Part shown: piece by piece, positions 5,384 through 49,758 of the stretch
Layout: each line of letters opens with the position of its first letter
How positions within the stretch are numbered: position 1 is the first letter of the stretch
Assembly: GCA_026982415.1 (NCBI GenBank)
Contig: JALSHE010000050.1
Coordinates: 1 to 64,000 of the forward strand
Length of the DNA stretch: 64,000 nt
Reading direction: 5' to 3'
Origin: Robiginitomaculum sp.
Lineage (GTDB): Bacteria > Pseudomonadota > Alphaproteobacteria > Caulobacterales > Maricaulaceae
Made by a program: the position numbers and the translations under genes
Notes under the pieces: generated by a model
Database searches by the model: none
What the model was told of the DNA's origin: nothing
What the model saw: the letters and a program-made list of their open reading frames with translations, nothing else

Positions 5384-6760
5384 ATGGGGCTGAAAAATAA
5401 TATTGGGCAATTAGCGCAGAAATATCGTGCGGATGCGCAGGGGCAATTTGCTGTAATTTCAGCACTTATTGGTTTGCCGCTTTTGCTGGTTGGGGCGGCT
5501 GCCGTTGATATTAACCGGGTTCATAGCCAGAATTCAGGTGTGGGTGCGGCAATAGACGCTGCGGCTTTGGCAGCGGTTATTCCCGATAATATGTCTACAA
5601 CCGAGCGTTATGCTTACGCTCAAAGTGTTTTTGACAGAAATTATATTGGGCGCGATGCCGTGTCTCTGGACATATCTGGAGGCCGTGAACGTGTTGATAT
5701 AGTCGCAACTTCTCAGGTGCCGACCACCATAAGTGGTATTTTGGGTATTGATTATATTAATGTGGTCGAAGAGACTGCCGCAGTGCTTACCCGTTCGGAT
5801 ATAATCTGCGTCTTGGCTTTGGACCCGAGTGGTGAGCGGGCAATCGAGTTTTCTGATCGCGCCGCTTTTAATGCCCCGGCTTGTTCAGTACAAGTGAACT
5901 CTACAAGCCCCTTTGCTATGGTTTCGGGCGTCGTTACGCCGCCGAAAGCAAAATCGTTCTGTGTAGCTGGTATAGCGCAAGGGGATTATAACCCGTATGT
6001 GAAAAATGCATGTACGCCTATCGCAGATCCTTACGCAAATCTTCCCGTGCCTGTAGATGGGGCGTGTGTGGATGTTTCAACCTTACGGCGGGTAACGGGT
6101 AGAGGTATGGGTAGAGGTATGGGTAGAGGTATGGGTAGAGGTATGGGTAGAGGTATGGGTAGAGGTATGGGCAGGGGCCTAGGTTTGGGCCGAGGGGGAG
6201 GCACCGAAGACATCATCGAAGATAATACGGTTATGCGCCCGGGAACTTATTGCAATGGCTTAGATATTAGAGGGCGCAATGTTACGTTCCCGCCCGGGAC
6301 ATATATTGTTAAAGGCGGTAAATTCCGGGTGCGTGAACAATCTGAAGTGGATGGTCAGGACGTAACTTTCGTGTTAAAAGGTGAGGGTGCCAGCCTGTCT
6401 ATTGAGAGCGATTCACAGCTTAGTTTAAAAGCGCCTATGACAGGTACATATGCTGGGCTGGTGTTTTACCAGATACCGGAAAACCCGGCGGTGGGCAGAA
6501 AGCCAGATTTTCCAACAGATACCAGCACAATAACATCAGGCGGTGGCTTATCCATTGTCGGGACGGCATATTTCCCCAGCCAAGAATTGTCCATTTCCAG
6601 CGATAGCCCCGTTGCGTCGCAATCGCCCGCAACTTCGTTTATTGCTTATCGTCTGAAGTTTTCAGGAAGAAGCAATACTCAAGTCCGTGTAGATCATGAA
6701 ACTGGCGGTATACCGCCGCTGTTACCGAGGTCTGATGATGGCGCGCGTCTGGTTAAGTAG
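5384..6760 (+). CDS. Tad-domain (TadG-like) pilus-associated protein with GRGM repeats
   Basis: A 458-residue exported protein. The N-terminus (DAQGQFAVISALIGLPLLLVG, then AAVDINRVHSQNSGVGAAIDAAALAA) is the putative Flp pilus-assembly (Tad, PF13400-type) segment that anchors TadG-like proteins. The middle (about residues 238-265) is six GRGM tetrapeptides plus degenerate copies. The C-terminal part (CNGLDIRGRNVTFPPGTYIVKGG, VDGQDVTFVLKGEGASL) looks like a beta-helix-rich surface domain. ATG 5384 is preferred over GTG 5372 because GGGG lies 6 nt before it. It is not in the main tad locus 10 kb away but probably serves the same machine. No von Willebrand domain seen. Confidence 0.75.
   Translation: MGLKNNIGQLAQKYRADAQGQFAVISALIGLPLLLVGAAAVDINRVHSQNSGVGAAIDAAALAAVIPDNMSTTERYAYAQSVFDRNYIGRDAVSLDISGGRERVDIVATSQVPTTISGILGIDYINVVEETAAVLTRSDIICVLALDPSGERAIEFSDRAAFNAPACSVQVNSTSPFAMVSGVVTPPKAKSFCVAGIAQGDYNPYVKNACTPIADPYANLPVPVDGACVDVSTLRRVTGRGMGRGMGRGMGRGMGRGMGRGMGRGLGLGRGGGTEDIIEDNTVMRPGTYCNGLDIRGRNVTFPPGTYIVKGGKFRVREQSEVDGQDVTFVLKGEGASLSIESDSQLSLKAPMTGTYAGLVFYQIPENPAVGRKPDFPTDTSTITSGGGLSIVGTAYFPSQELSISSDSPVASQSPATSFIAYRLKFSGRSNTQVRVDHETGGIPPLLPRSDDGARLVK
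6097..6180 (+). repeat. 12-bp tandem repeat (minisatellite) coding GRGM
   Basis: Six perfect copies of GGGTAGAGGTAT (6097-6168) are followed by one degenerate copy (6169-6180). The period is a multiple of 3, so copy-number change keeps the frame and only lengthens or shortens the Gly/Arg/Met linker. Confidence 0.97.
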
Positions 6761-45143: not shown

Positions 45144-46676
45144 TTGAAAAACATTCTTGAACAGTTGGAAGAACGCCGCGCACAGGCACGGCTCGGCGGC
45201 GGGCAAGCGCGTATTGATACGCAACACGCCAAAGGCAAATTGACGGCGCGAGAACGCATAAGCTTGTTGCTGGACGAGGACAGTTTCGAAGAGTTCGATA
45301 TGTTTGTCGCCCACCGCTGTACGGATTTCGGTATGGCGGATAAAGGCTTTCCGGGAGACGGTGTTGTCACAGGCTGGGGCACGATTAACGGGCGCAAGAC
45401 ATTTGTGTTCGCACAAGACTTTACAGTGTTTGGCGGCTCCCTGTCCGAAACCAATGCCAAGAAAATCTGCAAGATACAAGAAATGGCCATTAAACACCGC
45501 GCGCCTGTCATTGGCCTCAACGATAGCGGCGGCGCACGTATCCAAGAGGGCGTGGTATCCCTCGGCGGTTATGCAGATGTGTTCCAAAACAATGTTCTTG
45601 CCAGCGGCGTAATCCCGCAAATTAGCGTCATTATGGGGCCGTGCGCGGGTGGGGCGGTGTATTCTCCGGCGCTTACTGATTTTATCTTTATGGTGCGGGA
45701 CACGTCTTACATGTTTGTGACCGGCCCAGATGTGGTCAAAACCGTGACCAATGAAATAGTCACCGCCGAAGAATTGGGCGGCGCCAAAACCCACACGACC
45801 AAATCATCCGTAGCCGACGGGGCGTTCGATAACGATATGGAAGCGCTGGCCGAAATCCGCCGTCTGTTCGATTTCCTGCCCCTACACAACAAAGACAAAG
45901 CCCCAACCCGCAAAGTGTTTGACGATCCGAACCGCGTGGATATGTCGCTTGATACGCTGATACCGGACAATCCGAACCTGCCCTATGATATGCATGAACT
46001 GATTACCAAGGTCGCGGACGAGGGCGATTTCTACGAACTACAAAAAGACTACGCCAAAAACATCTTAACCGGATTTATCCGCTTGGACGGCAGTACGGTC
46101 GGTGTGGTGGCCAATCAACCTATGGTGCTAGCAGGGTGTTTGGATAGTGATAGCTCGCGCAAGGCTGCGCGGTTTGTCCGCTTCTGTGACGCGTTCTCTA
46201 TCCCGATTTTAACCTTCGTAGATGTCCCCGGATTTCTGCCCGGTACGGCGCAAGAACACGGCGGAATCATCAAACACGGCGCAAAACTGCTCTACGCATA
46301 CGGCGAAGCCACAGTCCCCAAAGTCACGGTCATCACCAGAAAAGCCTACGGCGGTGCCTACGACGTAATGGCCCCCAAACATCTGCGCGGCGACATGAAT
46401 TACGCATGGCCAAGCGCCCAAATCGCCGTCATGGGCGCAAAGGGCGCCGTTGAGATATTGTACCGAAAAGACCTAGGCGACCCAGAGGTCATCGCCAAAC
46501 ACACAGAAGAATACGAAAAAAACTTCGCCAACCCGTTCAAGGCGGCTGAAAAAGGCTATATAGACGAGGTAATTATGCCGCACTCCACACGCAAACGCAT
46601 ATGCAGGTCGTTCGCAATGCTAAAAGACAAAGACCTACAAAATCCATGGAAAAAACATGGGAACTTGCCGTTGTGA
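45144..46676 (+). CDS. pccB: Propionyl-CoA carboxylase beta (carboxyltransferase) subunit
   Basis: A 510-residue acyl-CoA carboxyltransferase that moves CO2 from carboxybiotin to propionyl-CoA, giving methylmalonyl-CoA. Family parts are [17 protein letters not shown], the acyl-CoA/oxyanion segments [19 protein letters not shown] and [13 protein letters not shown], and the second-domain [32 protein letters not shown]. Start is TTG 45144, with GGGGG 6 nt upstream; the ATG just before is out of frame. The alpha subunit gene lies about 1 kb downstream, beyond a palindrome array and an unrelated gene. Confidence 0.95.
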
Positions 46677-46712
46677 GTATTATGCAACAACTCCCCTCAC
46701 TCTCATCCGCTC

Positions 46713-47230
46713 ATCCCCACGAAAGTGGGGAACCAGCGATTATGAGCGCAGCAAAGCTGCGCACTTTACCCAAAAAACTGGATACCCGTTTCCACGGGTA
46801 TGAGCGGGGTGTTGGGGGTTTGGGCGACCCCAAAAAACATCCCAATTTAAATAATAATTCCTCCCCAAACTCCGCTCATACCTGCGCATGCAGGTATCCA
46901 CCTCAGAGGTTCGTGTTTTGCACCGATAGCCCAAAGATAGACCCCTGCATCCGCAGGGGTGAGCGGGGTGTTTGGGGTTTTGGCAAAATCAAATATTTTT
47001 ACTTAAGTGTAAGTATCCCCCCATTATCCGCTCATTCCCGCGCAGGCGGGAATCCATCTTGGATATCCAACTGGATACCCGCCGTCGCGGGTATGAGCGG
47101 GGTGTTGGGTGGTTTCCCCCTCTGCCGCTCATACCGACGCCCTCTTGGAAGTGCCCTTGGGGTGCGAAAGTCGGTATCCATTGTGAGTGCTACACCAAAC
47201 CGAAAGGTGTATCCCGTTTTTCAACGAGAT
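46713..47230. repeat. Array of eight alternating palindromic elements
   Basis: Stem-loops lie at 46713-46732, 46782-46801, 46878-46897, 46941-46960, 47034-47053, 47075-47094, 47131-47177 and 47211-47230. All but the seventh are 20 bp with about 6-bp arms and 8-nt centres, for example ATTCCCGCGCAGGCGGGAAT; the seventh is 47 bp. Arm sequences differ but stay complementary (one mismatch in the last). Flanks alternate strictly: CCGCTC before and CCA after, or the reverse complement with GAGCGGGGTGTTNGGGG after. A further hairpin GCGCAGC-AAA-GCTGCGC lies at 46746-46762. The layout resembles neisserial dRS3 (ATTCCC-N8-GGGAAT) and REP/MITE-like elements. The rest of 46677-47276 holds no convincing gene. 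Confidence 0.9.
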
Positions 47231-47276
47231 GAGTGGGGTGTTAGGGGCATAATAAACCTTTTTACTGTGAGTGATT

Positions 47277-47726
47277 ATGTCTGATCTATTAAAGAAAAAA
47301 GAATATTATATTGAAACCCTCCAAGAGTTAAATGGCGTAGTAAAGTTAAATACTATGATATTTGGTGCACCGTTAGTTCTTATTGCAACTCAGTTTCGTT
47401 TTCTATTAAACCTTGAATCGATCTGGATAAAAGCTTCTCTTTCTATCGCTGTCGTTTGCTTTTTATACGGTAGCTATTTTAACTTCTTAGGTGGGCAAAT
47501 ACTGAAATGGATAATTATACGTGAAAAGTTGCACTTATATGGTTCTCCAAGTAAGGGTGAAAAATATTTAGCACGATATGAAACAGTTTACGGAAACAAG
47601 GGTTTTCCATTAACAGAACAAGGTGGAATTAATTATTTAGACAAATACGAAAATCGCCTTCAATTAGCTATGCTAATTGGTTGGGGTTTTTTAGTGTTGT
47701 CATTTTTCATCGCTATATGGACATGA
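47277..47726 (+). CDS. Hypothetical two-helix membrane protein, AT-rich gene
   Basis: A 149-residue protein with two hydrophobic stretches near the centre (about 28-45 and 52-75) and one at the C-terminus (about 128-147), separated by a polar loop with RARYETVYGNKGF-like character. No family recognised. The gene is visibly richer in A and T than its neighbours, uses many AAA, ATT and TTA codons, and sits directly behind a palindrome array between pccB and pccA, so it looks acquired. ATG 47277 or GTG 47271 may start it; no strong ribosome binding site. Confidence 0.65.
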   Translation: MSDLLKKKEYYIETLQELNGVVKLNTMIFGAPLVLIATQFRFLLNLESIWIKASLSIAVVCFLYGSYFNFLGGQILKWIIIREKLHLYGSPSKGEKYLARYETVYGNKGFPLTEQGGINYLDKYENRLQLAMLIGWGFLVLSFFIAIWT

Positions 47727-47730
47727 ACCA

Positions 47731-49758
47731 ATGATAAAAAAAATACTAATCGCTAATCGGGGTGAGATTGCCTGTCGGGTTATTAAGACCGCCAAATTGA
47801 TGGGCATTGCTACTGTTGCTGTTTATTCCGATGCCGATAAAAATGCCCTGCATGTCACCATGGCGGATGAGAGCGTTTATATTGGGGCTTCGGCGGCCTC
47901 TGAATCCTATCTTGATATGGATAAGATATTGGCAGCCATTAAAGACACTGGAGCGGATGCGGTGCATCCGGGTTATGGTTTTCTTAGTGAAAACAAGGAC
48001 TTTGCGCTTAAACTTCAAGACATGGGCGTGGTGTTTATTGGGCCGAATGTGCGGGCTATTGAGGCTATGGGGGACAAGATTGCTTCCAAGAAATTGGCGC
48101 TTGAGGCCGGGGTTAGTACCGTGCCGGGGCATATGGGTTTGATTGAAGATGCCGATGAAGCCGTTAAGATTGCCAACAAAGTTGGCTATCCGGTGATGAT
48201 AAAGGCGTCTGCGGGCGGCGGCGGTAAGGGGATGCGGGTTGCGTATACGGACGAAGAGGCGCGGGAGGGTTTCGCATCTTCCAAGAACGAAGCCAAATCG
48301 TCTTTTGGAGACGACCGGATATTTATCGAGAAATTTATCGAAAGCCCGCGCCATATTGAAATTCAGGTATTGGGTGACAAGCACGGCAATATTATACACC
48401 TGAACGAACGCGAATGCTCCATCCAGCGCCGCAATCAGAAAGTCATAGAAGAAGCCCCGTCACCGTTTTTGGACGATGCCACGCGGGAAAAAATGGGCGC
48501 GGAAGCTATCGCGCTGGCCGCTATTGTTGATTATGACAGCGCCGGGACGGTGGAATTTATTGTCGATAAGGACAAGAATTTCTATTTTCTTGAGATGAAC
48601 ACTCGCTTGCAAGTGGAGCATCCGGTTACGGAACTTATCACCGGAGTTGATTTGGTCGAGCAGATGATTCGCGTGGCAAGCGGGGAGAAACTCAAACTGA
48701 AGCAAAAAGATATTAGCATAAATGGCTGGGCTATAGAGAGCCGCATTTACGCCGAAGACCCGTACCGCAATTTCTTGCCGTCCATTGGCCGCTTAACCCG
48801 CTACCGCCCGCCCGCCGAAGGTGAGACCGAGGACGGCGCAATCGTGCGTAACGATACGGGCGTCTATGAGGGCGGCGAAATTTCCATGTTCTACGACCCG
48901 ATGATAGCTAAACTGTGCACATGGGGCGCGGACAGGGGTATTGCAATCAAAGCCATGCAAGCCGCGCTGGATAATTTTGAGATCAAAGGTGTCGGGCATA
49001 ATATCCCGTTCCTGAGCGCCGTCATGCAGTGCGACAGGTTCATGCGCGGTGATATTTCCACCAATTATATCGCCGAAGAATACCCGGACGGGTTTGCGGG
49101 CGTCCCCCTTAACCCCGGACATGCCCGCACTATAGCTAGCGTCTGTACCTTGATGGCGCAAAAGCTTGCCGAACGTGCGGCCAGCGGCTCTGGCATATTA
49201 AAACACCATGAACGCGCTATCCCCACAAAATTAAGTGTCCAAGTTGGCGAGCGACATTACGATATTACCACCGAGCGCACTAATGGTAGTTCCTTGGTGA
49301 CGTCCACAGACGGCAGTGACAAAGCCGCCATAGAATTGGAAATCTCGTGTGGTTGGACGCCGGGGCAATCTTTGGCAACGTCACTGATTGATAACGAACC
49401 GTTCGTTTTCGCGGCCACCCCAATCCCCGAAGGTTACCGCGTACAGTACCGTGGTTCCGATATTGAGGTCAAAGTCCGCACACCCGCGCAAGCGGCTTTG
49501 GCGCTATTAATGCCGGAAAAAGTAGTAGCCGATACTTCTAACCTGCTTCTCTGTCCAATGCCCGGTGTCGTTGTCTCTGTATTGGTTGAAGAGGGCGATG
49601 AAGTCCAAGACGGACAAGCCCTTGCGGTCGTCGAAGCCATGAAAATGGAAAATACCCTACGGGCGGAGAAAAAGGCAGTCGTCAGTAAAATTAACGCGCA
49701 AGCTGGCGATAATCTGGCCGTGGACGAAATTATTATGGAATTTAAGCCGCCCTTATAA
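47731..49758 (+). CDS. pccA: Propionyl-CoA carboxylase alpha (biotin carboxylase/carrier) subunit
   Basis: A 675-residue biotin-dependent subunit. Residues 1-450 form the biotin carboxylase with ATP-grasp loop KASAGGGGKGMRVAY, catalytic HIEIQVLGD and ECSIQRRNQK, and EMNTRLQVEHPVTE. A BT-type linker domain follows, and the C-terminal biotin carrier domain has VVEAMKMENTL with the biotinylated Lys. It works with PccB in propionate, odd-chain fatty acid and branched amino acid breakdown. It starts 4 nt after the preceding membrane-protein gene, so that insertion may now share its transcript. Confidence 0.96.
   Translation: MIKKILIANRGEIACRVIKTAKLMGIATVAVYSDADKNALHVTMADESVYIGASAASESYLDMDKILAAIKDTGADAVHPGYGFLSENKDFALKLQDMGVVFIGPNVRAIEAMGDKIASKKLALEAGVSTVPGHMGLIEDADEAVKIANKVGYPVMIKASAGGGGKGMRVAYTDEEAREGFASSKNEAKSSFGDDRIFIEKFIESPRHIEIQVLGDKHGNIIHLNERECSIQRRNQKVIEEAPSPFLDDATREKMGAEAIALAAIVDYDSAGTVEFIVDKDKNFYFLEMNTRLQVEHPVTELITGVDLVEQMIRVASGEKLKLKQKDISINGWAIESRIYAEDPYRNFLPSIGRLTRYRPPAEGETEDGAIVRNDTGVYEGGEISMFYDPMIAKLCTWGADRGIAIKAMQAALDNFEIKGVGHNIPFLSAVMQCDRFMRGDISTNYIAEEYPDGFAGVPLNPGHARTIASVCTLMAQKLAERAASGSGILKHHERAIPTKLSVQVGERHYDITTERTNGSSLVTSTDGSDKAAIELEISCGWTPGQSLATSLIDNEPFVFAATPIPEGYRVQYRGSDIEVKVRTPAQAALALLMPEKVVADTSNLLLCPMPGVVVSVLVEEGDEVQDGQALAVVEAMKMENTLRAEKKAVVSKINAQAGDNLAVDEIIMEFKPPL

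Follow-up and report, generated by a model that had tools for sequence, protein, structure and literature searches.

Four head-to-head GCTC-tagged REP dimers between pccB and pccA in a Robiginitomaculum genome

Layout of the array

The window (the whole 64-kb stretch of Robiginitomaculum sp. DNA that was analysed) carries pccB and pccA on the plus strand, separated by an array of palindromes and a 151-aa open reading frame, ORF151, to which we refer as a cargo gene. Gene names were read from translations, and the Pfam scan was applied to cargo ORFs only.

45144-46676, plus strand: pccB, propionyl-CoA carboxylase beta (name read from the translation); the first tag lies 30 nt past its stop codon
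46707-46807, no strand assigned: REP dimer 1, subtype I; CCGCTC and hairpin 46713-46732, spacer hairpin 46746-46762, hairpin 46782-46801 and GAGCGG
46872-46966, no strand assigned: REP dimer 2, subtype II; hairpins 46878-46897 and 46941-46960
47028-47100, no strand assigned: REP dimer 3, subtype III; hairpins 47034-47053 (ATTCCC-N8-GGGAAT) and 47075-47094
47125-47236, no strand assigned: REP dimer 4, subtype IV; hairpins 47131-47177 (47 nt) and 47211-47230, right tag GAGTGG
47139-47165, plus strand: 27-nt secondary repeat at the 5' edge of the hairpin 7 loop
47271-47726, plus strand: cargo ORF151 (151 aa), between the array and pccA
47731-49758, plus strand: pccA (name read from the translation), directly behind pccB in relatives with an empty site

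Eight palindromes at 46713-47230 alternated strictly in orientation (- + - + - + - +), and all eight were matched by one covariance model (E-values of 1.5e-16 to 3.6e-4), which was built from copies of the same genome with six of the array hairpins among them. Outside the array, the window contained a single other whole-model match with E < 0.1, at 5820 (E = 0.029). The initial annotation had described eight strictly alternating stem-loops, seven of them of exactly 20 bp, and had listed their arm sequences, all of which was confirmed; the eighth (hairpin 7, 47131-47177) extended over 47 nt, its GAAA loop being separated from the 5' arm by a 27-nt repeat. Its division into 6-bp arms and an 8-nt centre had to be revised, as the centre comprises two extra pairs around N4, giving a stem of 8 bp and a loop of 4 nt. 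Five of the eight hairpins had a perfect 8-bp stem with a 4-nt loop, hairpins 1 and 8 carried one mismatch each (A/A at the outer end and C/A, respectively), and hairpin 4 started with AC rather than AT. The rest of the window contained 11 hairpins when scanned for stems of at least 8 bp and loops of 3-12 nt.

Each half-element consisted of TGG (TAG in hairpin 4), a 20-nt palindrome and the tag GAGCGG; hairpins 1, 7, and 8 deviated slightly from this scheme. The half-elements formed four head-to-head pairs, with the tags outward and the TGG/CCA ends inward, and the tag-to-tag lengths were 101, 95, 73, and 112 bp, respectively. The flanks were conserved, as previously noted: CCGCTC was exact at all four left-hand hairpins, and GAGCGGGGTGTTNGGGG recurred beside each of the four right-hand hairpins with at most one mismatch.

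Dispersal, arm pairing and the tag

The half-element pattern gave 28 matches in the 2.73-Mb source genome (G000) and none for the reversed control. With a covariance model built from 30 copies of the source genome, 69 half-elements were detected in this genome, 4-106 in 12 of the 13 other genus genomes, none in the remaining one (G013), and matches in 29 of 41 genomes overall; 150 candidates were scored per genome, so these counts may be low. A count of 49 of 61 genomes obtained with a looser pattern was set aside because of a block in G059 and some one-off matches that are probably due to chance. The block (C32, 1440-3111), with 28 pattern matches at 61-bp spacing, is probably a CRISPR array rather than a group of REPs. 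The 11 dimers listed for the source genome all had their tags outside, the only arrangement that the script sought, and 10 halves were listed without a partner under the dimer thresholds, some of which do have one when the regions are read. REPs sat close behind the stop codons of co-directional genes.

Based on the stems and spacer of complete dimers, we distinguished four subtypes, whose naming is that of this analysis: subtype I (ATTCCCGC../ATACCCAG.., whose spacer hairpin is of the GAGCGAGCAAAGCTCGC type), subtype II (ATACCTGC../ACCCCTGC..), subtype III (ATTCCCGC../ATACCCGC.., with a short spacer), and subtype IV (ATACCGAC../..CAACGGGGT). Subtype II was represented by ten identical copies, three of which (C16, C30, and C31) possibly represent a single locus, as they have the same flanks close to contig ends. 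The array comprised one dimer of each subtype, and all stems and spacers differed; dimer 1 had the spacer and first stem of subtype I and a different second stem. A C87 dimer (L205) of the form ATACCGAC../..CAACGGGGT had arms similar to those of dimer 4.

The claim that pairing is kept while the arms drift was upheld in other genomes, where 54 of 65 distinct 28-mers, taken from among the matches listed and none from the source genome, had all four free pairs (shuffled mean 3.4, maximum 10); the pattern fixes only TGGAT-N-CC and GG-N-ATGAGCG. The two loop pairs of the same 28-mers were complementary in only 3 and 15. In the source genome, 95.8% of cells were paired in 30 half-elements, a set chosen partly by pairing, compared with 77.8% after shuffling, and double changes numbered 48 and 14.3, respectively. 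When only TGG-N20-GAGCGG was fixed, 24 of 48 distinct 20-mers from genus loci, the source genome included, were fully paired (1.8 after shuffling). The suggestion that the flanks let neighbours pair into units of about 103-116 bp did not hold: across approximately 40 genus dimers (80 entries, both strands), the outer arms paired at 4.96 of 10 positions within a dimer and at 5.35 between shuffled dimers. Larger outer stems were rejected, as the outer arms do not covary, and the genus flank consensus faded about 11 nt past the tag. The array is not a unique locus with uncompensated arms, an outcome that the initial annotation had considered, since it has 28 pattern matches in its own genome, copies in relatives, and compensatory arms.

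Hairpin 7 pointed to a second repeat. The 19-nt core of its insert was present in 11 of the 14 genus genomes, whereas the control gave no match, and 10 of the 33 contexts listed were CCGCTC REP hairpins (that of the window included) with the 27-nt insert at the identical position (loci L322-L351); the remaining contexts listed were CCTCTCC-type repeats or lay elsewhere, some perhaps by chance.

Of the known REP kinds, the CGTC superfamily comes closest; the passages on these elements in Di Nocera et al. 2013 (PMC3733652) describe it as mostly alphaproteobacterial, with stems of 8-9 bp mostly starting with AT, loops of 4-5 nt, CCA tails, and head-to-head dimers. The present family shared with CGTC-1 the 8-bp stem mostly starting with AT (outer pair A-T in 26 of 30 copies; second pair T-A in 23 and C-G in 7, i.e., 30 of 30), a 4-nt loop in most copies (6 nt in one subtype I arm, and a 27-nt insertion in hairpin 7), and the CCA tail (TGG in 27 of 30 and TAG in 3 of 30). 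Head-to-head dimers, subsets with alternative stems, structured spacers, a location behind genes, and the lack of a transposase gene flanked by CCGCTC REPs in the source genome were further likenesses. The difference lay in the tag, which is CCGCTC (GAGCGG) and not CGTC. As the CGTC-1 features were found except for the tag, the CCGCTC family is a GCTC-tagged sister of CGTC-1 and not a member. There is good support for a genuine REP family that is dispersed, has compensatory arms, and differs from a known kind by its tag.

An otherwise identical pattern gave 31 matches with the GCTC tag and none with the CGTC tag in the source genome. Across the 61 genomes, CGTC was found in 10 and GCTC in 24 (with one control match, in G052), and both occurred only in G004, G008, and G044, each with one CGTC match; the two tags thus almost exclude each other. 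One of the eight array hairpins (47034-47053) reads ATTCCC-N8-GGGAAT, the 20-bp dRS3 form as given in the initial annotation, so that the likeness to the neisserial element is limited to one hairpin body, from one subtype of a wider family; the tag and the arms of the other seven hairpins differ. The same passages of PMC3733652 equate dRS3 with the CGTC-1 REPs of Neisseria, which are clustered, name only TGTC and CCTC as tag variants, and call CGTC clusters rare outside Neisseria and Wolbachia, whereas four dimers are clustered here. REPs are also interleaved with other repeat families in neisserial mosaic intergenic clusters, as described in part of that paper; the REPs studied here are similarly interleaved, with a CCTCTCC repeat and with the 27-nt repeat of the loop, but their setting is that of operon junctions and single accessory genes. 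A search of one library of papers listed none on CCGCTC- or GCTC-tagged REPs; the main text of PMC3733652 contains no word starting with GCTC, and the part of the RepRanger paper considered (PMC12306157) does not address a CCGCTC-tagged family.

Empty and filled orthologous junctions

We surveyed 13 pcc junctions in 11 genus genomes, the source genome included (G004, G006, G009, and a fourth, partial pccB of G013 were left out). Four were empty or nearly so, with the pccB stop codon overlapping the pccA start in G012 and at two junctions of G013 (C41 and C31), and with approximately 10 bp between the genes in G010. Six carried REP dimers and cargo, namely, four dimers in the source genome, three in G003, two in G005, and one each in G001, G002, and G007, and three carried cargo without CCGCTC REPs (G008, G011, and G013:C19). 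A dimer near-identical to dimer 1 occupied the same place in G003 and G007, and subtype II was the first dimer in G005. G003 had dimers 1, 2, and 3 in common with the window, lacked dimer 4, and carried a different cargo gene. The left flanks of dimer 1 in the source genome, G003, and G007 aligned no better than those of unrelated sites, so dimers and flanks have had separate histories at pcc.

The cargo genes varied between genomes (L168-L170, L173-L176, L197, and L198). Among seven cargo proteins scanned, Pfam matches were obtained for Mrr_cat (G008), DUF559 (G011), AbiJ_NTD4 (G013), DUF7079 (G005), and, below the cut-off, an M15 peptidase (G003), and none for ORF151 or the G001 cargo ORF; ORF151 also had no homologue in the other genomes of the 61. 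Judged by likeness without a scan, an Mrr gene was also present in G007, a DUF559 gene in G002, and a DUF7079-like ORF in G011. Some of the cargo genes are defence-like. The stop codon of the last cargo gene lay at, or a few bases from, the pccA start, and in G007 the pccA start sequence ATGATAAAAAAA recurred where the first of its two cargo genes ends. DUF559-like endonuclease genes, one identified by Pfam scan and the rest by eye, were flanked by CCTCTCC..GGAGAGG or CCCCACCCCTAACCCCTCCCC palindromic repeats at four loci (L198 and L174 at pcc in G002 and G011; L315 and L316 at glyQ/glyS in G005 and G006), and they possibly represent a repeat-associated nuclease.

Joined flanks were used to test six further sites of the source genome, and the reading of relatives took in 40 regions. 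The gatA/gatB junction was an empty stop/start overlap in G003, G007, G012, G013, G001, and, by eye, G009; it contained a subtype I dimer in the source genome, G011, and G006, and other inserts resembling small ORFs in G005, G002, G004, and G010. Empty sites were likewise found at glyQ/glyS (G008, G007, G012, and G001), pdhC/pdhB (G003 and G007; 2 bp in G005), and ilvC/ilvB (G012; 11 bp in G007). Between gatB and the next gene, the source genome carried a subtype I dimer, G005 a subtype II dimer, and G007 none. At glyS/ppdK, no empty site was observed in the three relatives resolved, with a dimer in G007 and other repeats in G005 and G008; a further region yielded no left flank. At the filled sites of the source genome, the left-hand gene still has its stop codon and the right-hand gene its start codon, which may reflect survivorship, the junction being the tolerated place in tightly packed operons. 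Inspection by eye revealed no constant target-site duplication across gatA/gatB, glyQ/glyS, and ilvC/ilvB, a repeated ATG fitting the first two and not the third.

At ilvC/ilvB, G003 carried a subtype I and G005 a subtype II dimer between left flanks that aligned gap-free with a score of 0.62 (0.26 for the best of 115 cross-site pairs); the right flanks scored 0.14, under the best cross-site pair (0.31). Left flanks at pcc in the source genome and G005 scored 0.47. An enzyme-driven exchange of subtypes at fixed flanks is not claimed, given the low right-flank score at ilvC/ilvB and because the pcc pattern is more simply explained by a deletion between dimers 1 and 2 at their direct tag repeats.

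Origin of the array

The array consists of four head-to-head CCGCTC-tagged REP dimers that were probably inserted serially at the pccB/pccA junction. The repeated insertion of an apparently nonautonomous element suggested at the outset is supported by the dispersed copies, the filled and empty sites, and the paired arms that change in step. What we infer beyond this concerns the mobilising enzyme, the order of events, and any role of the RNA. The dimer would be a nonautonomous unit of approximately 73-112 bp (tag, 8-bp hairpin, CCA, spacer, TGG, 8-bp hairpin, and tag), of which copies would have been inserted one by one at a junction whose empty form is an overlap of pccB and pccA. It may move as hairpin-bearing, probably single-stranded, DNA through a trans-acting enzyme that recognises both hairpin and tag, a mechanism that would account for arms changing in sequence without losing their pairing; recombination between direct tag repeats would shrink the array.

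REPIN/RAYT systems are known in Pseudomonas and E. coli, and the present elements resemble them as dispersed, nonautonomous, inverted REP doublets. Inverted doublets are tied to RAYTs in other bacteria (PMC3733652; see also PMC3116915), and mobilisation of the array dimers in trans by a RAYT (TnpA-REP) transposase is conceivable, if unlikely. A Y1-transposase match was found in 17 of 61 genomes (15 over the cut-off), and among 41 genomes it was present in 12 of the 22 with at least 10 half-elements and in 2 of the 19 others (Fisher's p = 0.004, with relatedness ignored), which partly favours a link. The source genome itself has one match (C120; L029, 1308-2063), which we read as RAYT-like in sequence. 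However, this gene is flanked by CGTAGGGTGGATT repeats of the GTAG type and not by CCGCTC REPs, so the check for a RAYT link proposed in the initial annotation came out negative in the source genome, the only one whose Y1 flanks were read, while the 41-genome association points the other way; as a mobiliser, the gene is not supported, since it lacks flanking copies. Ten REP-rich genomes had no Y1 match, including G002, G005, and G052 (67, 51, and 81 half-elements, respectively; estimated completeness 100%), two genomes had Y1 but no REPs, G013 with two Y1 matches among them, and the rank correlation between REP count and Y1 within the genus was 0. The CGTC REPs likewise have no associated transposase in the passages of Di Nocera et al. 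2013 cited above (PMC3733652), where their mobiliser was left open.

A dedicated mobiliser flanked by REPs on both sides was also rejected: in 20 regions of the source genome (L207-L212 in part; names read from translations), the genes so flanked were mostly ordinary operon genes (gatAB, glyQS, ilv, and pdh) and an ORF with pentapeptide repeats. Neither the flanks of the Y1 gene nor the REP-flanked genes of the source genome yielded a mobilising enzyme. As separate observations, a similar-looking GTAG-type dimer is found beside CCGCTC dimers at pdhC/pdhB (L205), and an ORF that reads like an IS1595-type transposase (L216, 2149-2817) adjoins a CCGCTC REP dimer at 2014-2096.

Alternatively, the hairpins might be a selected RNA device that tunes expression between pccB and the genes behind it, which we consider somewhat less likely still. 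The array region was predicted to fold strongly as RNA (-252.7 kcal/mol, z = -10.7 relative to shuffles), and REPs of this family lie close behind stop codons of co-directional genes, as has been reported for other REPs (PMC3733652). Nevertheless, three relatives together provide four junctions without any hairpin, where pccA comes immediately behind pccB or approximately 10 bp further on, the same elements lie behind unrelated genes, and no terminator-like site was found on the sense strand at 46600-47800. Terminator-like sites numbered 3 (1.2 expected), all on the minus strand, promoter-like sites were at chance level (2, with 2.2 expected), and Rfam gave no match near the gathering score, with six low-scoring matches to miRNA and OmrA-B models. 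The array transcript would be a hairpin-rich spacer RNA between pccB and the cargo gene, and the string of hairpins may slow 3' exonucleases or uncouple translation, probably as a by-product rather than as a dedicated pcc regulator.

Equally doubtful is a record of cargo turnover, in which each accessory gene came with a REP dimer, displaced its predecessor, and left the dimer behind. In each of the six genus genomes that have REPs at pcc, these are located between pccB and the final cargo gene; dimer 1 is common to G007, G003, and the source genome and dimers 1-3 to the latter two, yet the cargo differs, and G003 lacks both dimer 4 and ORF151. These are six cases only, however, and REPs also occur between genes without cargo. 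Moreover, three filled junctions have cargo but no CCGCTC REPs (G008, G011, and G013:C19), the cargo of G002 flanks its dimer on both sides, the dimer 1 left flanks differ among the source genome, G003, and G007, and REPs at six of nine cargo junctions, compared with none of four empty ones, make a small sample. We would give no greater chance to a combination of these ideas, in which a lineage-specific, tag-reading enzyme moves dimers into operon stop/start overlaps that also receive single defence-like genes, so that successive insertions and cargo replacements would be layered in the pcc array; the enzyme is taken as reading the tag because the tags are nearly exclusive between genomes.

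Several findings stand against serial insertion as the preferred reading. Neither a mobilising enzyme nor a constant target-site duplication was found, the left flanks of dimer 1 do not align among the source genome, G003, and G007, and GGGGTGTTNGGG is present in every one of the four right flanks. The last is more than independent insertions by themselves would account for, and this end was possibly copied locally; gene conversion among copies could also underlie some of the conservation. Tandem duplication, in which one dimer was amplified in place four times, would fit GAGCGGGGTGTTNGGGG in all four right flanks, beyond what is typical of genus copies, but it is highly improbable and largely refuted by the presence of one dimer of each subtype, since the four differ in stems, spacer lengths, and spacer sequences; dimers similar to subtypes I, II, and IV are present elsewhere in the genome, and relatives carry one to three dimers at pcc.

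Under serial insertion, the pcc junction illustrates how operons gain spacer hairpins and accessory genes with neither neighbour broken. The range of 0-106 half-elements per genome, the empty and filled orthologous sites, and the switched tag make the question of the mobiliser of CGTC-type REPs testable, the expectation being that CGTC-tag and GCTC-tag lineages have different mobilising enzymes. Dimers behind pccB also occurred outside the genus, both in G018, which belongs to another genus of the same family, and, in diverged form and directly behind the gene, in a Hellea MAG (L091). The 80 named PccB relatives (76-82% identity; the nearest records may be left out) were mostly Rhodobacterales, with two Hellea records and a few others. 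In 72 of these 80 (L087-L166), pccA lay downstream of pccB within the locus at a distance of 368-4173 bp, so the gap holds extra sequence in Rhodobacterales too.
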